Source: an uncultured Acidimicrobiales bacterium (GTDB lineage: Bacteria; Actinomycetota; Acidimicrobiia; Acidimicrobiales; SHLQ01). From it: a stretch of DNA of 37,597 nt. Shown in pieces: positions 4,563 through 37,597 of this stretch. The DNA is taken from contig CALLAA010000257.1 in the NCBI GenBank assembly GCA_938002955.1, forward strand, positions 1 to 37,597. The letters run 5' to 3'. Under the pieces are notes generated by a model. That model was not told where the DNA came from. It ran no database searches and saw only the letters and a program-made list of their open reading frames with translations. How positions within the stretch are numbered: position 1 is the first letter of the stretch; every line of letters begins with the position of its first letter. Made by a program: the position numbers and the translations under genes.

Positions 4563-6491
4563 TCAGTCCATTCCTTCCGTGCGCATCTGCTCTGCGCGCT
4601 GTGTGGTTGTGAGATGCTGTGGGGTCGTGAGATTCGGTTGTGTCGTGACCGAGCCGGGAGAGTCGGCGACCGCCCCGCCGACGGCGGCCAAGATCTCTTC
4701 TAGCGCTTCGCCCTCGAGAGACTCGTGTTCAATGAGGCTTTCTGCAAGCTCGTCGAGTACCGCCCGATGGATCGTCAAGATCTCGCGTGCCTCGGAGTGG
4801 GCTGCCTCGACGAGCTCGCGAACCTCGGCGTCAATCCTCGCCGCGACCTCATCGCTGTAGTCAGCTTCATGGCCGCTGTTCTTGCCGAGGAAGACCTCGC
4901 CCGACTTGTGCCCAAGACGTTGCGGGCCAAGCGATTCGCTCATCCCGTATTCGGTCACCATGGCCCGAGCAATCGACGCCACTCGGTCGATATCGTCGCT
5001 CGCTCCAGTCGTGGGGTCGCCAAAGATCAGCTCCTCGGCCGTTCGTCCCCCGAGCAACATGGCCATCGTGTCGGTGAGCTCGCTGCGGGTTTGCAAATAC
5101 TTGTCTTCGGTCGGGAGGGACAGCGTCCAGCCGAGCGCTCGTCCGCGTGCGACGATCGACACTTTGTGAATCGGGTCGGTGTTCGGCAGCGCATGACCCA
5201 CGAGGGTGTGTCCGGCCTCGTGATAGGCGATGACCATCTTTTCCTTGTCGGACATGGCCCGACTCTTACGCTCGGGTCCAGCGATCACCCGATCGATAGC
5301 GTCCTCAATTTCGGCCTGGCCGATGCGGTTCTTGTCGCGGCGGGCGGCGAGCAGCGCGGCCTCGTTGAGCAGGTTCGCAATGTCGGCCCCCGTGAAACCC
5401 GGCGTACGTCGGGCAATGACCTCGGTGCTGACATCGTCGTCGAGCGGCTTACCCGCGGCGTGAACATCAGCGATGGCCTTGCGGCCATGTAGATCTGGCC
5501 GGTCGACAACGATCTGACGGTCGAATCGACCAGGGCGCAATAACGCGGGGTCGAGAATGTCGGGACGGTTGGTCGCAGCGATAAGGATGACACCGGTGGT
5601 GACATCGAAGCCGTCCATCTCAACGAGCAGCTGGTTGAGCGTCTGCTCGCGCTCATCGTGCCCACCGCCAAGACCTGCTCCTCGGTGACGACCGACGGCA
5701 TCGATCTCGTCGACGAAGATGATGGCTGGTGCTTCGTCTTTTGCTTGCTGGAACAGGTCACGAACCCGGCTCGCTCCAACCCCCACAAACATCTCCACAA
5801 AGTCCGAACCCGAGATCGTGAAGAACGGAACGCCCGCCTCGCCGGCAACCGCTCGAGCGAGCAAGGTCTTGCCCGTGCCAGGAGGGCCAAACAGCAGGAC
5901 GCCCTTGGGGATTTTTGCGCCGATGCGTTGGAAGCGTTCGGGGTCGGACAGGAAGTCACGAATCTCGGTGAGTTCGTCGACGGCCTCGTCCGCGCCAGCG
6001 ACGTCGGCAAAGGTAACGGTCGGCTGGTCCTTCGACATTTTGCGGGTCTTGGCTTTGCCGAATCCCTTCGCTCCCCGACCGCCCTGCATCGAGCTGAGGA
6101 AGAACCAGAAGATTCCGACGATCAGGAGGAGCGGCAAGAACTGTTGGAGCAGCTGGCCCCATGCGCTCGGGCGTTGACTGTCGGTATCGAGGTCGATCGC
6201 TGGTTCGGCAGCGCGAAGCTCGGCGAAGATTTCGTCGGTCGTTTCGCTCGGGAACGTGGCGATAAATCGCTCATCGCCTTCGATCAGCACACCGGTGACC
6301 TGATGCGATCGGTCGAGCACGGTCGCCTCGGCGATTTCGCCGCCCGAAATGGCTGCTTCAAGCTCGGAGAATGTCAGCTCGGTGGGGGCTGGATCGCGCG
6401 TCAACACCGACGCGATGAGTAGGGCAACGAGTACGACGCTGCCGACGAGCAGCATCGCGGAACGAGAGAGCTTCTTCACGATGCGCTTCAA
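4563..6491 (-). CDS. ftsH: ATP-dependent zinc metalloprotease FtsH
   Basis: Membrane-anchored AAA+ protease that degrades misassembled membrane proteins and selected cytosolic regulators. The 642 residues show a first membrane segment (about 12-30), a small extracytoplasmic domain, a second membrane segment (about 113-135), the AAA module with Walker A GPPGTGKT (202-209) and Walker B IIFVDEID (257-264), the second region of homology [18 protein letters not shown] (308-325) and the zinc-binding HEAGH (424-428). The tail after about residue 600 is acidic, then Thr/Gln rich and probably disordered. Length is typical of actinobacterial FtsH. It lies 49 bases after hpt and 1 base before folE, the standard hpt-ftsH-folE order of Actinobacteria. 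Confidence 0.98.
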
Positions 6492-33357: not shown

Positions 33358-33996
33358 CTAGCTTGCAAGCGAACGCTGCACGGCGAAACGCCACACTTCT
33401 AACTCTTCGCGCTCGCACTTTCGCTCCCGACGTGAGAGCGCCTCGCAGGCGGGTCGCCGTTCCCATCCGTCGTCGCTCGTCGAGAGCGGGCTGGCTTCGA
33501 GATGGTCGGCGATCTCGCGGGCGTAGAGCTCCACATCTGTGGCGATCAGGAGGAGGCCTCCGGGGCGCAGGCAGCGATGGACATCGTCGATGAACTCCGG
33601 AGTTAGCAGTAGGCGCTTTGCGCGGAGCTTTGCGTTCCACCATGGGGTGGGAAAGAGAACCTCGACAATGTCGAAGCTGCTCGGCGGGGCAACGTTCGCG
33701 AGCACGGTCCTCGCATCAGCACGCCACGCAAGCAGGTTGTCGAGGCCGCGTTCATCACCGCGCACCGTCACGCCGTGCACGCGCTTGCTGCGCACCTCGA
33801 GTCCGGCGATGCGCCAGTCTGGGTTGCGTTCAGCCGTGTCGAGGATGCGTCGGCCGTGGTCGAAGCCCACCTCAACAAGACATGGACCCGGCCCGTGAAG
33901 AAAGTCAACGAACCGTTCTGCCTCGTGGCGGTACTGCGGCTGCTCGAACAGTCGGCTCCCGTTCAGGGTTCCTGGAACATGACGGGGGGCGTCCAT
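33358..33996 (-). CDS. TrmB-like SAM-dependent methyltransferase, divergent
   Basis: A 212-residue class I methyltransferase that resembles tRNA (guanine-N7)-methyltransferase TrmB. The SAM loop is VEVGFDHGRRILDTAERNPDW (VEVGFDHG 41-48, where TrmB has VEIGFGxG), then GLEVRSKRV and DIVEVLFPTPWWNAKLRAKRLLLTPEF. TrmB has FPDPWPKxRHxKRR; here the aspartate after FP is a threonine (FPTPWW, 115-120) and the basic run is reduced. RCLRPGGLLLIATDVELY is retained. It may have lost tRNA activity or changed substrate. It is the last gene before the tRNA-flanked island, 110 bases from the first att copy, so it could also be cargo of an older insertion. Confidence 0.72.
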   Translation of the reverse strand: MDAPRHVPGTLNGSRLFEQPQYRHEAERFVDFLHGPGPCLVEVGFDHGRRILDTAERNPDWRIAGLEVRSKRVHGVTVRGDERGLDNLLAWRADARTVLANVAPPSSFDIVEVLFPTPWWNAKLRAKRLLLTPEFIDDVHRCLRPGGLLLIATDVELYAREIADHLEASPLSTSDDGWERRPACEALSRRERKCEREELEVWRFAVQRSLAS

Positions 33997-34106: not shown

Positions 34107-34149
34107 GAGCCCGAGAGCAGAATCGAACTGCTGACCTATTCATTACGAG
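34107..34149 (-). repeat. tRNA-Thr 3'-half direct repeat, copy 1 (att-like)
   Basis: Exactly 43 bases identical to the 3' part of tRNA-Thr(CGU), from the first anticodon-loop base to 1 base past the acceptor end. The 5' half is replaced by element sequence. Similarity to the tRNA 3' flank continues (AATCGTTGAG at 34085-34094, also at 37512-37521). It is the leftmost of three copies and marks the left end of segment 1. Confidence 0.93.
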
Positions 34150-34162
34150 AAGTTCTGGCCTT

Positions 34163-34237
34163 AGCGCTGTGCTAACTCTCCACAGGCGAACGATGGCGGG
34201 CTAGCTGCGCGAGCGCTGTGCTAGAAGTTATTCGCTG
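34163..34237. repeat. AGCGCTGTGCTA direct repeats beside att copy 1 (49-bp spacing)
   Basis: AGCGCTGTGCTAAC (34163-34176) and AGCGCTGTGCTA (34212-34223) start 49 bases apart; the second is part of a 27-base block, GAGCGC to GCTG (34211-34237), also found near copy 2 and at 36702. Same order and spacing as beside copy 2. They look like arm-type integrase or accessory-protein sites. Confidence 0.85.
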
Positions 34238-34283
34238 TGACGAGCAACGCCTCTCACGGCAAGGCAACTCTCTAGGTTCCGCT

Positions 34284-34715
34284 CTATTCCCAAGCAGCTC
34301 CGAACTCCGTTAGGAGATCCTGAGTACATCTTGGGTCGGCGCAAAACAGGAGAACCTCGGACGGTTCCGTTGCATCGAATCTGGTTGCCATCCCAGATAG
34401 CGCAAAGGAGTCGCCATTCTCTCCTTGTGGGCAGACTGCCTCCGCTTGACCAGCAGACTTAACGCAGAGCCTCATGAGCTGTTCCGGTGCTTTCCCGAGC
34501 GGCGCAAAGGTCACCTCAATTAGAGAGACACCCTCGTCGTTCAAGAGTCGACCATCGAAGGTGACGTACTCATATCCGTCCGGAAGCTCGGGAAGCAGTG
34601 CCTTCACGGCGGGGTCGTCCGGCAATCCGATTGGTCTGACCTCTTCACCGAACGTCGGAATTCCGCAGGAGCTGAGAACAAGCATCAGGACTGCTAATTT
34701 CGGAATTCTGGACAT
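34284..34715 (-). CDS. small lipoprotein, unknown function
   Basis: A 143-residue exported protein. The N terminus MSRIPKLAVLMLVLSSCGIP has a basic start, a hydrophobic core and a lipobox LSSC (cysteine 17), so it is probably lipid-anchored on the outer face. The mature part carries cysteines in pairs (LCVKSAGQAEAVCPQG and FCADPRCTQ), likely disulfides, and has no recognised domain. AGGGG lies about 7 bases before the ATG, so it uses a leadered start. It is the only gene of segment 1 (34107-35005). The base composition is visibly less GC-rich than the core genome, as is the rest of the island. Confidence 0.78.
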   Translation of the reverse strand: MSRIPKLAVLMLVLSSCGIPTFGEEVRPIGLPDDPAVKALLPELPDGYEYVTFDGRLLNDEGVSLIEVTFAPLGKAPEQLMRLCVKSAGQAEAVCPQGENGDSFALSGMATRFDATEPSEVLLFCADPRCTQDLLTEFGAAWE

Positions 34716-35005
34716 GATTCACCCCTCGCCATTGCGAATAGAACTTGCGCAAGCTCAGAATCTTCGAGGTCGGGATTGCCCCAGGGTGTCACATCAAGTA
34801 ACACAGCGCCTCAGCTGAGCCAGACTGCAAGCCAGTTCTATCATCCGCGAATAGTGCCGAAACGATAGATAGAAGCCAGAGTGGTTGGAACCCACCTAGT
34901 AGATCAATTCGATAGACGGGCCAGCGCAGAACGTGTTGGATCATGTGGGGGAACACCATTGGATTCGAGTGACCAAGCAAGGAATCTCACACTTTCTCAA
35001 CCTCT
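34716..35005. other. segment 1 non-coding stretch
   Basis: Between the lipoprotein gene and att copy 2. A 63-codon frame on the minus strand (34789-34980) has neither a ribosome site nor a TANNNT hexamer in place, so I do not call it. I see no RNA gene or repeat here apart from the 3' flank of copy 2, which keeps CTCAACCT-like bases of the tRNA flank. Confidence 0.5.
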
Positions 35006-35048
35006 GAGCCCGAGAGCAGAATCGAACTGCTGACCTATTCATTACGAG
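35006..35048 (-). repeat. tRNA-Thr 3'-half direct repeat, copy 2 (att-like)
   Basis: Same 43 bases as copies 1 and 3 without a mismatch, 899 bases from copy 1 and 2527 from copy 3. It joins the end of segment 1 to the start of segment 2. The bases after it (AAGTCTGGGCCT) nearly match those after copy 1 (AAGTTCTGGCCT), so both copies share the element arm. Confidence 0.93.
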
Positions 35049-35061
35049 AAGTCTGGGCCTC

Positions 35062-35136
35062 AGCGCTGTGCTAACCGGCCGGACAGCCCTGATTCCGGGA
35101 GACTCCGAGGAGCGCTGTGCTACTAGTTATTTGCTG
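35062..35136. repeat. AGCGCTGTGCTA direct repeats beside att copy 2 (49-bp spacing)
   Basis: AGCGCTGTGCTAAC (35062-35075) and AGCGCTGTGCTA (35111-35122) start 49 bases apart, as beside copy 1. The 27-base block is 35110-35136. The distance from the tRNA fragment is also conserved (13 bases in both). Confidence 0.85.
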
Positions 35137-35191
35137 AGGTCGATACCTGAAACGGGATGCGCCGCCAAAGGAATCTCTCTCTTCATGTTCA

Positions 35192-35590
35192 CTAGCTTTC
35201 CCCTGCTCTACTTGCGCGTTCATCGCCGGTCTTCGTGTTGACAGTCCAACAGCTAAACGCCCAATCGCCCCACCCTGTAGCCGATCGACATGCTGTTTCA
35301 ACGCGACTACGCACGATAGCGGCGGGCTCCTCGACGTGTTCCACTGGAGCAACTCGACCAGGGGGCCCACCATCGACGTATTGCAGCTTCCCAAGCTTCA
35401 GTAATCCCGCCTCGATCAGCCTCGAATAGCTGCGGAAGACTGCATCGATCTGAACAACACTTGGCGGATTGTCCCGGCCCGGTGTGTTTCCCCGAACCTC
35501 GAGATGGATCAATGCCATGCCGAATGAGACGTCATCAGTGAGCCCATCCATGAGAATTCCGAGTTCACCCTTGGTCAGATCAGGCTGCAT
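35192..35590 (-). CDS. hypothetical protein in tRNA-flanked segment 2
   Basis: A 132-residue soluble protein with no signal peptide. Its N half is acidic and helical (LTKGELGILMDGLTDDVSFGMALIHLEV), the middle has VVQIDAVFRSYSRLIEAGLLKLGKLQYVDGGPPG, and near the C terminus WGDWAFSCWTVNT has three tryptophans. The layout, a short acidic domain with a helix rich in Leu, then an all-beta C half, resembles immunity-type small proteins but I recognise no family. TATTCT ends 6 bases before the ATG, and a CGGAC/GTCCG dyad overlaps it (35592-35608). It is the first gene after the att copy 2 repeats. Confidence 0.65.
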   Translation of the reverse strand: MQPDLTKGELGILMDGLTDDVSFGMALIHLEVRGNTPGRDNPPSVVQIDAVFRSYSRLIEAGLLKLGKLQYVDGGPPGRVAPVEHVEEPAAIVRSRVETACRSATGWGDWAFSCWTVNTKTGDERASRAGES

Positions 35591-35646
35591 CCGGACAGAA
35601 TACGTCCGATCACTGGGTCGACAGAGAAACGCGCGGTGCTCAAGAG

Positions 35647-36435
35647 CTACTTGCTGTCGCCGTTCGGAGACCTCAGCCGCCTGTAGCTACTGTTCTCCGC
35701 TCCGGTGAAGAAGTAACGATCAAGGTATGCGTCTGAGTCGAGTTTCGACTTACGCATCTCGGAATGGACCTCCTTGCCCTCAACAGCAAAGCCGGTAACG
35801 GACAATTGATAGCTGCTGCACGCGTTTAGGTAGCGATAGCCGAGACTGTCGGCGTAACGACGTGCTTCGTTCTCAGCAGACTCAATCGCTTCTTCGGCGC
35901 TGTCGGCTCGCCACAGCGTGATTCGCTCCTCGTAGTCGAATGGCCCATCACTTTTCAACGCAAAGTGACATCGCACGCTGAACCATGGCTGCTCGTCGTT
36001 CACATTGTTTCGTTCGCTTCCGGCCTCAACTATTTGAACGCGTTCGATGCTTCGAACGTTAAAACCGCACTGCTGGAGGAAGTCCTGTGCCCTTGGTGCC
36101 GAGGTCGGAGCTAAAGCGTGCGCCGCTCGGCAGTCCAACTCAATTGCCCAGTCGCTGAAACGCCAGACCAGGTCACGGCCGATCGATTGGCTTCGATTTT
36201 CGGGCAGGACGAAAACACTGTCCAGAACTACCCGCGGCTCCTCATCAGACGAGAGAGCAAGACCTACAAGACACCCAACAACAACACCAGCTTCCTCAGC
36301 GACAACGACAACAGTTGACTTGTCAGTCAGGTCAGGCATCTTGGGGACCAGATCCGGCACCTCAACGGCCAGGGCCTCGATTAGGCCGTGGATCGTCGAG
36401 GCATCGTTCTCTCCAGCGATTCGGATCTCAGCCAT
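35647..36435 (-). CDS. GNAT acetyltransferase fused to DUF4288 domain
   Basis: A 262-residue two-domain protein. Residues about 3-130 are a GNAT fold: MAEIRIAGENDASTIHGLIE, VVVAEEAGVVVGCLVGLAL, VVLDSVFVLPENRSQSIGRDLVWRF (acetyl-CoA loop, with R-S-Q-S-I-G in place of the usual R-x-x-G-x-G/A) and HALAPTSAPRAQDFLQQCGFNV. Residues about 145-250 match DUF4288: WFSVRCHFAL, YEERITLWRADSAEEAIESAENEARRYA and SDAYLDRYFFTGAE. DUF4288 often occurs alone beside SUKH-type immunity genes. The combination suggests regulation by a partner, target unknown. TAGTAT lies 6 bases before the ATG, so it is probably leaderless. It lies inside tRNA-flanked segment 2. Confidence 0.8.
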   Translation of the reverse strand: MAEIRIAGENDASTIHGLIEALAVEVPDLVPKMPDLTDKSTVVVVAEEAGVVVGCLVGLALSSDEEPRVVLDSVFVLPENRSQSIGRDLVWRFSDWAIELDCRAAHALAPTSAPRAQDFLQQCGFNVRSIERVQIVEAGSERNNVNDEQPWFSVRCHFALKSDGPFDYEERITLWRADSAEEAIESAENEARRYADSLGYRYLNACSSYQLSVTGFAVEGKEVHSEMRKSKLDSDAYLDRYFFTGAENSSYRRLRSPNGDSK

Positions 36436-36474
36436 ACGCTGATACTAAATGCGCCTAGGCATCAGCGACGACGC

Positions 36475-36615
36475 TCAGCCAGGGATCAATCCGCGCAGAA
36501 TGTCGAGCCGGTTGGCGGGAGCATCGGGCGAAAAGAAGTCAGGGATCGTGTTGGGTGTTCGCCGAGGCCGTGAGAGAAATTCGACCGGCCACTCAGTTAC
36601 GCGGTCACCGGTCAT
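36475..36615 (-). CDS. possible small ORF upstream of GNAT-DUF4288 gene
   Basis: A 46-codon frame, MTGDRVTEWPVEFLSRPRRTPNTIPDFFSPDAPANRLDILRGLIPG in pieces, 39 bases before the GNAT gene on the same strand. GACAAT lies 8 bases before the ATG. The frame stays open further upstream through the 27-base repeat (36702-36728), where it reads NNFEHGAH, so the real gene may be longer or be a fragment cut at the repeat. No domain is recognised. Weak evidence either way. Confidence 0.35.
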   Translation of the reverse strand: MTGDRVTEWPVEFLSRPRRTPNTIPDFFSPDAPANRLDILRGLIPG

Positions 36616-36701
36616 ATGCACGTATTGTCCGGCCTTCTTCCTCAGAGATCCACTCTCGTTGTAGAACGAGGGCCAGCGGTTCCTTGACGGGCGAGCTAGG
36701 T

Positions 36702-36728
36702 GAGCGCCGTGCTCAAAGTTATTCGCTG
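36702..36728. repeat. solitary copy of the 27-bp arm repeat
   Basis: GAGCGCCGTGCTC, then AAAGTTATTCGCTG: 27 bases, with GTTATTCGCTG identical to the copy at 34211 and a few changes elsewhere. No tRNA fragment lies beside it, so the attached att half has been lost, or this is an internal site. Confidence 0.8.
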
Positions 36729-36790
36729 TACCTCTGTATGGCCCTCGTGGCGGATCGGGGACTGTCACTGGCAACGGCTAACCTTCTCCC

Positions 36791-36970
36791 ATGGACAAGA
36801 AGATCTGGACTGCCGCCGAGCTGGAAAAGATGACTCCGGCCGAGCGACACGAGCTCTCCGAGGCCAGCATCGTCCGAGATCTCGACGAGGCACCTCAACA
36901 CCTCGTCGAAAGGGCCCGGCAGTTCGTTGCTGAGAGGATTGCCACAGAAGAAGCGTCACAAGCGAGTTGA
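36791..36970 (+). CDS. small antitoxin-like protein
   Basis: A 59-residue acidic, helical protein: MDKKIWTAAELEKMTPAERH, then ELSEASIVRDLDEAPQHLVE and RARQFVAERIATEEASQAS. The pattern of Trp-Thr-Ala-Ala-Glu-Leu-Glu-Lys-Met-Thr-Pro followed by a Val-Arg-Asp-Leu-Asp motif is typical of small proteins that precede RelE-like genes in Actinobacteria. TAACCT ends 6 bases before the ATG. Its stop (36968-36970) overlaps the TTG start of the next gene, which is the normal coupling of antitoxin and toxin. There is no recognisable DNA-binding fold in so few residues, so whether it autoregulates is open. Confidence 0.65.
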   Translation: MDKKIWTAAELEKMTPAERHELSEASIVRDLDEAPQHLVERARQFVAERIATEEASQAS

Positions 36971-37281
36971 GTGATCGACTTGTTGTTCGGGTTACTCGTA
37001 CATTCTTCGAAGATCTCGATCGGCAGCTGTCACCCGATCGGGGACCAACCGGCGAGCCATCAAGGATCGACTTCGAAACCGTCGAACTGGTGCCCATAAT
37101 CGAGGAGTTCGCTACGGGATTCTCCGCTTTGCCGACGCCCATTCCAGGACGCTCCGACTATCGGCTTCTCATCCGCACCGGAATGCTGTTCCGGGGAATG
37201 TCCGTAACCGGTCAGCTCATGAGCGACGGCGCAGTCGAACTTCTTCGACTCGATATCGACCACGGAATGAGCTGGGATTAA
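36967..37281 (+). CDS. RelE/ParE-like toxin candidate
   Basis: A 104-residue protein beginning at TTG 36967, inside the stop of the antitoxin-like gene. The order of segments fits the RelE fold: VVRVTRTFFEDLDRQL (first strand and helix), DFETVELVPIIEEFATGF, then SDYRLLIRTGMLFRGMSVTGQLMSDGAVELLRLDIDHGM (beta-hairpin with basic residues and a C-terminal D-G-x-V-E-L-L strand). These match mRNA-interferase/gyrase-type toxins in layout, but the catalytic residues are not individually identified. It sits in the second tRNA-flanked segment, where an addiction pair could prevent loss of the element. Toxin activity is inferred. Confidence 0.6.
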   Translation: MSDRLVVRVTRTFFEDLDRQLSPDRGPTGEPSRIDFETVELVPIIEEFATGFSALPTPIPGRSDYRLLIRTGMLFRGMSVTGQLMSDGAVELLRLDIDHGMSWD

Positions 37282-37442
37282 CCGTCCTCAAAAAGGGAGG
37301 CTACACACACGAGCAAGGCGACCTCGGGGGAGGACGTACTTTCGGCTTCGGCATGCGCTTCGAACTCCGCCCAGGGAATCCCATCTAGGTATGCAGAATC
37401 CAGATAGCCCTGAACCACAGCCCTCGGATTCGGAGGCCAGAT
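37278..37442 (-). pseudogene. C-terminal gene fragment cut at the att-like scar
   Basis: On the minus strand an open frame of at least 54 codons (IWPPNPRAVVQGYLDSAYLD, then GIPWAEFEAHAEAESTSSPE and VALLVCVASLFEDG) ends in TAA at 37278-37280. It has no acceptable start codon; reading upstream it runs into the scar at 37455-37486 and a stop. The residue pattern is protein-like and unlike a shadow. It probably represents a gene whose 5' part was removed when an element inserted or left. The frame overlaps the end of the toxin gene on the other strand by 4 bases. Family unknown. Confidence 0.45.
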
Positions 37443-37454
37443 CAGATAAGGCGC

Positions 37455-37486
37455 CGAATGAATTGCTCTACGATCGCTGTGCTAAC
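37455..37486. repeat. composite scar: tRNA-Thr 5'-part plus GCTGTGCTAAC arm
   Basis: Bases 37455-37471 match tRNA-Thr bases 37572-37588 at 16 of 17 positions (anticodon stem and D-arm), then TCGCTGTGCTAAC (37474-37486) matches the arm repeats of copies 1 and 2. So this copy keeps the other tRNA half than copies 1 and 2 do. It lies 46 bases before the intact tRNA 3' end. Confidence 0.75.
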
Positions 37487-37532
37487 CCAACGGGCCGTCG
37501 CAGCCAGTGACAATCGTTGAGTTCTCAATACA

Positions 37533-37575
37533 GAGCCCGAGAGCAGAATCGAACTGCTGACCTATTCATTACGAG
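37533..37575 (-). repeat. tRNA-Thr 3'-half direct repeat, copy 3 (inside the tRNA gene)
   Basis: The 43-base block at its native place. It begins at the anticodon loop CTCGTAA, exactly where tyrosine recombinases typically cross over, and runs through the T-arm and acceptor 3' strand to 1 base past the end. Confidence 0.93.
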
Positions 37576-37597
37576 TGAATTGCTCTACCAACTGAGC
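37534..37597 (-). tRNA. tRNA-Thr (anticodon CGU), 5' end outside window
   Basis: Minus strand: D-arm GCTCAGTTGGTAGAGC, anticodon stem ATTCA/TGAAT around loop CTCGTAA (anticodon CGT, reads ACG), variable loop AGG, T-stem AGCAG/CTGCT with TTCGATT loop, and acceptor 3' strand CTCGGGC plus discriminator T. CCA is not encoded. The first nine nucleotides (acceptor 5' strand, expected GCCCGAG, plus two bases) lie past the window end, so the gene is partial here. It is the target gene of the island on its left. Confidence 0.93.

Follow-up and report, generated by a model that had tools for sequence, protein, structure and literature searches.

Small cassettes that target tRNA genes and lack an integrase are already known. 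Additive islands of 'Ca. Actinomarinales', in the class Acidimicrobiia, contain small tRNA-targeted gene cassettes (PMC7771536), and in the additive island of Methylophilaceae the final 20 bp of tRNA-Lys recur as repeats that mark a variable cargo of 330 bp to 42 kb (PMC10872708). Among the Dehalococcoides genomic islands at ssrA, 15 have no integration module and are possible cis-mobilizable elements (PMC3146451). The tRNA islands catalogued by Islander combine a crossover in the anticodon loop, a restored tRNA and a displaced 3' fragment; since it requires an integrase and a length of at least 2 kb, cassettes like those described below escape it (PMC4383910). PMC5217437 was compared as well; statements on all cited articles refer to the available portions of their text. 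Here we analyse the 37,597 nucleotides of contig CALLAA010000257.1 from an uncultured Acidimicrobiales bacterium (the whole stretch is called the window), which carries at one end an array of small segments bounded by copies of a tRNA-Thr 3' half. The mobile-element structure is real and well beyond chance, and we consider it likely that the segments are non-autonomous integrative cassettes stacked at tRNA-Thr and recombined in trans by a helper integrase; their movement is deduced from comparison of relatives. What is new is the grammar of the attachment (att) sites and a candidate for the helper.

The source contig, identical with the window, is C257 of assembly G000 (3.93 Mb, 270 contigs, 89.5% complete). 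Other G numbers designate sampled relatives; loci L054 and L055 are contigs C10 and C104 of G000. The order of arms and cores is given in the tRNA sense, which is the - strand of the window.

Displaced tRNA-Thr halves and their arm repeats

Throughout the window, the 43-bp block occurs in three exact copies on the + strand (at 34107, 35006 and 37533), with no further copy on either strand (0 on the - strand); three identical 43-mers are far beyond chance. Its reverse complement runs from the first anticodon-loop base (CTCGTAA, anticodon CGT) to the 3' end of tRNA-Thr. The first-pass annotation had reported three identical, same-strand 3' halves starting at the anticodon loop, and the window search confirms it. 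It had further taken the three copies to bound the segments. Identity and positions stand, but the 37533 copy is the tRNA-Thr gene itself, because nucleotides 37576-37597 continue it into the tRNA 5' half up to the contig end; only the 34107 and 35006 copies are displaced halves. In the window ARAGORN detects no tRNA of full length; a complete homologous tRNA-Thr is present in L054 and in relatives. The array is bounded by a restored tRNA and an identical displaced fragment in the same orientation.

The 43-bp block is a real unit, but the recurrent one is longer, both distal copies carrying two 10-bp arms at fixed distances. These are direct repeats GCACAGCGCT at -72 and -23 of both displaced cores, 49 bp apart. 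Past the tRNA core, at +50, lies GCACAGCGATC, a near copy of the arm (1 mismatch). The features of the sites are listed below from the tRNA onwards; bit scores come from a sequence-only site model built from eight sites.

37533..37597, - strand: 3' part of the tRNA-Thr(CGT) gene, which the contig end cuts off; the 43-bp core occupies 37533-37575
37472..37482, - strand: P'-type arm GCACAGCGATC, 1 mismatch, offset 50 past the tRNA core end; 0 of 300 mononucleotide shuffles equal it
36685..36729, - strand: arm site of a cassette end, reduced to a remnant without core; 82% similarity, 16.3 bits
35111..35120, - strand: P arm 1 of cassette 2, GCACAGCGCT, from the arm search
35062..35071, - strand: P arm 2 of cassette 2, GCACAGCGCT, from the arm search
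35006..35048, - strand: core copy 2, tRNA-Thr 3' half; 107 bits with arms, the site belonging to the training set of the model
34212..34221, - strand: P arm 1 of cassette 3, GCACAGCGCT, from the arm search
34163..34172, - strand: P arm 2 of cassette 3, GCACAGCGCT, from the arm search
34107..34149, - strand: core copy 1, closing the array distally; 108.9 bits with arms, also a training site

Directly past the P' arm, at 37455-37471, lies a 17-nt near copy (94%) of the tRNA 5' half, and a like sequence is found past the P' arm in G006 and G005.

The lack of mismatches between copies had been read as a sign of recent insertion or else of gene conversion. The former reading is not needed: recombination can homogenise the tRNA half, and the copies of other species do show mismatches. 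The identity of the three cores would also agree with a duplication of tRNA fragments by homologous recombination or gene conversion only, which leaves unexplained both the arm repeats at set distances and the matching sites in integrase-bearing elements (see below), so that we give this explanation next to no weight.

The geometry of the sites was examined on cores with at most 11 mismatches, tabulated in the loci fetched for close reading: 45 hand-picked cores (23 at tRNAs and 22 others) and 12 added ones, that is, 29 tRNA and 28 non-tRNA cores. Two of these, one in G005 and one in G018, are decayed, their start being uncertain by 1-2 bases. An in-register arm pair stands upstream of 19 of the 28 non-tRNA cores, as against 0 of the 29 tRNA cores, with a spacing of 49 bp in 14 cases, 38 in four and 37 in one. 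None of the six non-tRNA cores among the 12 added has the pair, and one of the six added tRNA cores has a 2-mismatch arm at offset 85. A downstream arm is found at 13/23 tRNA cores versus 3/22 other cores of the 45-core set, its offsets at tRNA cores being 50-52 (10 cores), 62, 73 or 84. Both the spacings (49/38) and these offsets differ by about one helical turn, which would fit a complex in which the DNA is bent by bound proteins; the arms would be bound by the integrase or by an accessory protein.

A pattern for the arm pair that contains no core and leaves 26-41 free bases between the arms was run on 397 genomes sampled from the order, with the reversed pattern as control. It finds 17 sites in 13 genomes (spacing 49 in 12, 38 in four, 37 in one) and the control finds 0; all 17 are att sites described in this study, including one on C110 of G012 that retains just CTCGT of its core. 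Among genomes of 84,980 species, the exact pattern of arm 2 plus core gives 11 matches in nine records, all titled as metagenome-assembled genomes of Acidimicrobiia, Acidimicrobiales or Microthrixaceae. A single arm is unspecific: in the G000 genome the 12-mer with 1 mismatch is matched 16 times and the reversed pattern 65 times. The site model finds full sites in further genera; its other listed matches are mostly partial (core half) and, where inspected, usually the tRNA gene itself.

Arrays of small cassettes with one or two genes each and toxin-antitoxin-like cargo also call to mind an integron, in which attC sites fold in single-stranded form. The repeats formed by the arms are direct and not inverted, and the integrase of G015 introduced below scores 55 bits against an integron-integrase cut-off of 265. 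DNA folding is clearly above shuffles at one of six sites (z +0.68, -0.20, -1.46, -0.24, -3.09, -1.78), and attC-like folding of the arm region was discarded for lack of a consistent excess. An integron of this kind seems scarcely credible.

An integrase family that shares the arm

Two relatives carry the same signal together with an integrase gene. In G015 and G034, elements of 10.6 kb and 7.8 kb are bounded by the same tRNA-Thr with its P' arm and, at the other end, by arm, arm and core. The first gene past the P' arm encodes a tyrosine recombinase (300 aa in G015, 317 aa in G034). The array of the window has no integrase of its own. Since the signal is thus accompanied in relatives by a matching integrase gene, the cassettes appear to hitchhike on the enzyme of another element. 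The G015 integrase is Xer-like without being an XerC or XerD equivalog, scoring 160 bits against the XerC cut-off of 335 and 159 against the XerD cut-off of 330.

A profile built from three members (E 1e-42) places this family at 27 sites in 25 of the 397 genomes of the order. A tRNA lies within 400 bp upstream at 22 of the 27 (Thr, Val, Ala, Arg, Met, Asn), and an arm stands between the tRNA and the integrase gene in 18 at up to 2 mismatches and in 14 at up to 1. Seventeen loci, chosen from the 27 after their tRNAs were known, were fetched more widely: in 13 of them the 200 bp preceding the gene contain an arm with no more than 1 mismatch, compared with 0 of 20 Xer-like control loci, and shuffles of the 17 give on average 0.33 arms, with a maximum of 2. 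The far end of the element was identified in four of the 17, each time with an arm 20-23 bp before the core; among the four are elements that lie 5' of tRNA-Ala and tRNA-Asn. The arm is thus characteristic of the integrase family, and the core of the tRNA that is targeted.

The same data bear on the host XerC/XerD as recombinases of these sites, without any mobile helper. The sole PF00589 matches in the array-bearing G009, and the sole intact ones in G000, are two Xer-like genes each; in G000 these are XerD (over the cut-off) and an XerC-like protein (below it), to which a broken fragment on C114 must be added. The arm, often found near the separate integrase family, is near none of the 20 Xer-like genes. 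XerC/XerD were set aside as the enzyme on this ground, and we hold a host-only reaction to be highly improbable.

An Xer-like enzyme of about 300 aa is not expected to have a separate arm-binding domain. An 85-aa protein, encoded two genes from the integrase in G015 and partly matched in G034 (55% over 49 aa), is a candidate arm binder. Within the genus of the window, G004 has a member of the integrase family beside tRNA-Thr, cut by the contig end; further profile matches in G006 and G001 are unclear.

Some loci of the survey are worth describing for themselves. In seven of them (L232-L234, L236, L240-L242) the integrase faces the 5' end of the tRNA, and in the others the 3' end. At L232 (C6 of G245), elements apparently flank tRNA-Ala on both sides: the integrase element lies on the 5' side, and on the other an identical 43-bp repeat of a tRNA half is found about 1.8 kb away, with no recognisable arms. 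Neighbouring pairs of tyrosine recombinase genes in G010 (C4, L047), G004 (C92) and G014 (C8) belong to a different kind of element; the pair in G010 is near a tRNA-Thr(TGT).

Relatives of the integrase also occur in IMG/VR, where 27 of 80 loci were scanned and stretches of four were read. In L267, a 46-kb predicted phage contig, a relative of the integrase immediately follows arm 2, a tRNA-Thr half with anticodon TGT and a P' arm, both arms at 1 mismatch; four of the contig's ten frames have PHROGs matches (repressor, unknown, integrase, tail). Its stretch 5824-5954, with arm 2, tRNA-Thr(TGT) half and P' arm, looks like a free attP. The integrase and partial att site of L267 make temperate phages possible helpers; these two features make up the whole match to a predicted phage. 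L271 has arm-like repeats (2 mismatches) around a tRNA-Val-like core, L266 and L270 have one degenerate arm past the tRNA, and many of the remaining IMG/VR loci start too close to the contig end to be judged. A phage origin of the cassettes themselves was discarded, the pattern of arm 2 and core(CGT) having 0 matches in IMG/VR although integrase relatives occur there.

Occupancy, exchange and cargo

The first-pass annotation had proposed satellite-like or minimal tRNA cassettes, moved in trans and stacked on each other, and had looked to related strains with zero, one or two segments for support. Relatives with zero, one or several segments do exist, with differing cargo. A DNA search of 11 genomes of the genus matched 10, some at the tRNA alone. 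G003, G011 and G013 have no unit (tRNA-Thr without a further core within the 14-18 kb fetched); G009, G111 and G316, for example, have one; G002, G005 and G308 have several. In G002 and G005 the array is at the same place, between trmB and tRNA-Thr with a conserved gene upstream of it, which we take by eye to be of the GGDEF/EAL type. G308, from another family, has three units of 0.75-0.95 kb after tRNA-Thr. Small variable cassettes are found at the tRNA, most of them ending in a tRNA-half repeat with the recombination signal, and their content varies among relatives. This occupancy, the swapping of units described next and the integrase-bearing elements with the same att signal all fit the proposal.

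The closest comparison involves C10 and G006, which are 96.5% identical over 3038 bp up to 38 bp past the tRNA, with no similarity found further on. The window and G006 share a GNAT unit (86% over 485 bp), and their tRNA-proximal units differ. As far as sequence comparison goes, the first unit after the tRNA is thus different between close relatives.

The window was said to hold two cargo segments (899 and 2527 bp) without an integrase. No recombinase was found: C257 has no PF00589 match in a whole-genome search, nor has any of the Pfam-searched open reading frames (ORFs) of the segments. The 2527-bp segment, on the other hand, is probably two units, because it contains the decayed arm remnant at 36685-36729; the segments would then amount to three units (about 0.85, 1.64 and 0.9 kb), one of the junctions having decayed. 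From the tRNA, the order is core, P' arm, 104-aa/59-aa gene pair, arm remnant, GNAT gene, 132-aa ORF, arms, core, 143-aa ORF, arms, core, and then trmB.

36685..37532, - strand: cassette 1, about 0.85 kb, two-gene cargo, ending in the decayed arm remnant; similarity to G006 resumes just past the remnant
36967..37281, + strand: 104-aa ORF, TTG start, putative toxin-like partner; 4-nt overlap with the 59-aa ORF
36791..36970, + strand: 59-aa ORF, putative antitoxin-like partner; homologs in att-bearing loci of G002, G005, G008, G018 and G034
35049..36684, - strand: cassette 2, about 1.64 kb; one part, 485 bp, matches the same locus of G006 at 86% identity
35647..36435, - strand: 262-aa GNAT-domain protein (Pfam PF00583, E 1.9e-10)
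35192..35590, - strand: 132-aa ORF call, no family match in Pfam or NCBIfam
34150..35005, - strand: cassette 3, 856 bp by its core/arm bounds (899 bp including one core)
34284..34715, - strand: 143-aa ORF call, lipoprotein-like start (by eye), no family match in Pfam
33358..33996, - strand: trmB-like methyltransferase gene (PF02390), the conserved flank past the array

The trmB gene also lies past the array in G002 and G005, and beside the decayed-core arm pair on C110 of G012. PADLOC reports nothing for the four proteins of the window, and neither the 59-aa nor the 104-aa ORF matches a family in Pfam, PADLOC or NCBIfam; the fold prediction for the 104-aa protein is poor (mean pLDDT, a predicted local confidence score, 48.5). 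In the loci already fetched, mostly for att sites or tRNA-Thr, where alone homologs of the pair were sought, the 104-aa ORF recurs in att-bearing loci of G005 (C18 and C25), G008, G018, G316 and C104, and in part in G002. The two-gene overlap and this recurrence suggest that the pair may be a toxin-antitoxin module.

Elsewhere, the cargo of G308 comprises a nucleotidyltransferase with a HepT-like protein, presumably an MntA-HepT-like pair, an NYN protein, and a ribbon-helix-helix protein with a weak Fic/Doc match. PADLOC assigns PDC-S09 to the G308 nucleotidyltransferase and HEC-09 to the NYN proteins of G308 and G111. The NYN-domain gene is common to cassettes of these two genomes, which belong to two genera (73% over 242 aa), so that homologous cargo exists in cassettes of different genera. 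G002 carries a PoNi immunity gene and a weak SMI1/KNR4 match, G009 a DUF4259 gene and G260 a GNAT gene; the cargo of several other cassettes has no family at all.

Cores are also found outside tRNAs: in G008 where a coding gene ends, in decayed form on C25 of G005, and, again decayed, after a gene labelled by eye as an ABC-transporter ATPase on C104. The likely G008 ortholog of the latter gene (80% identical) has no core. At L174 (C89 of G227; positions 5151, 12530 and 15073), another tRNA-Thr has two displaced 43-bp cores without arms; the stretches before both cores are alike by eye, which suggests a different element family at the same tRNA.

The segments might instead be fixed relics, that is, once-autonomous islands that decayed, were stacked by accretion and are immobile as units. 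Cis-mobilizable elements are defined in this way (PMC5704250, available portion): attL and attR are kept while integration and transfer genes are absent, and the window array has this composition, as judged by Pfam on its ORFs and with one inner junction decayed. Decayed sites do exist (36685-36729; C110 of G012; a third arm pair without core in G005), and the assembly of the window lacks the paired integrase. Against this, no ORF of at least 80 aa from the two autonomous elements (G015, G034) matches any of 21 cassettes at E 1e-3, most units measure 0.7-1.7 kb with intact arms (one in G110 has 4.5 kb), and some cargo is common to different genera. We therefore judge relics unlikely.

Several observations weigh against mobile cassettes served by a helper. 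No cognate integrase was found in the assembly of the window, 89.5% complete as it is, so that the array may be inactive in this genome at present. Nine of the 28 non-tRNA cores have no arm pair: those of G002, G332 and G311 retain arm 2 alone (at most 2 mismatches), those of G008, G005 C25 and C104 are first cores at non-tRNA sites, that of G012 is decayed, and the two of G227 look like the other element family. Most distal cores have no P' arm behind them, which leaves interior units without a complete attP. The combination of tRNA and arm is absent from nine of the 27 integrase places, mostly lower-scoring, one of them having no upstream sequence. Arm 1 of L267 is recognised only at 3 mismatches. 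The training sites of the site model were picked for their arms, and its later matches are thus not independent evidence for them. The genomes compared are for the most part fragmented drafts. Finally, C10 and C104 may be mis-binned, and the assembly may mix two populations, because they are far closer to G006 (96.5% and 98%) than two other G000 loci, the Xer loci, at about 88%. For the same reason C10 and C257 were rejected as two alleles of one strain. The comparison of C10 with G006 as close relatives holds whether or not C10 is mis-binned.

Mechanism and comparison with known systems

If the cassettes are non-autonomous and mobile, as we favour, a unit would consist of the 43-bp core, one or two cargo genes and the two arm repeats. 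Single units would be excised, and a circularised unit would offer an attP-like site (arm, arm, core) to the tRNA or to any core of the array, the core restoring the tRNA on integration. A helper integrase would recombine cassette cores with the tRNA core or with one another, which would lead to stacking. It would act in trans and belong to the Xer-like tyrosine integrase family whose own elements, integrated beside tRNAs and perhaps in some cases temperate phages, use the same arm sequence; that a member of this family acts on the cassettes of the window is suggested by the shared signal. The rarity of P' arms at interior cores could mean that they are lost from the units, or that the single P' arm of the tRNA serves all units. 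More tentatively, one may picture an integron-like capture in which the tRNA and its single P' arm form a standing platform where integrases from passing phages or integrating elements load, stack and shuffle portable cassettes of one or two genes that bring their own arm-arm-core sites, with toxin-antitoxin and immunity genes favoured; we find this conceivable and rather doubtful.

A readable grammar, made of two arms, a core and an opposite arm in steps of about a helical turn, singles out a candidate helper and opens mobilisation in trans to experimental testing. The available text on similar tRNA cassettes names no enzyme (PMC10872708, PMC7771536). The cassettes also suggest a possible route by which single toxin-antitoxin or immunity genes spread between environmental actinobacteria. 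In the open-licence literature searched, no paper combines Acidimicrobiia, an integrase, a tRNA and a gene cassette, and the titles and abstract openings listed hold no description of an arm-arm-core att grammar.

With the 'Ca. Actinomarinales' cassettes, which come from the same bacterial class and a different order, the array shares the small size and the tRNA target. Those cassettes, in contrast, use several tRNAs inside one envelope-polysaccharide island, and the main text on them, in its available portion, does not contain the word integrase nor describe arm sites, a spacing rule or a helper (PMC7771536). In the Methylophilaceae island, repeated tRNA 3' ends likewise delimit variable cargo; the available text describes neither an att architecture nor a pairing with an integrase (PMC10872708). 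The Dehalococcoides islands are tandem and bounded by copies of an RNA-gene 3' end as well, but differ in their serine recombinases, their tmRNA target and their reductive-dehalogenase cargo (PMC3146451). Islander islands have in common with the array the anticodon-loop crossover, the restored tRNA and the displaced 3' fragment (PMC4383910). Integrons and clusters of attC sites lacking an integron integrase (CALIN) are recognised by inverted R boxes that fold in single-stranded form and by an IntI-family integrase, neither of which goes with the sites described here. CALIN are nevertheless alike in being cassette arrays without an integrase that are mobilised in trans; they depend on attC sites and the integron integrase, whereas the array at tRNA-Thr has tRNA-derived arm-core sites and, as its probable counterpart, an Xer-like integrase (PMC11389934, available portion).

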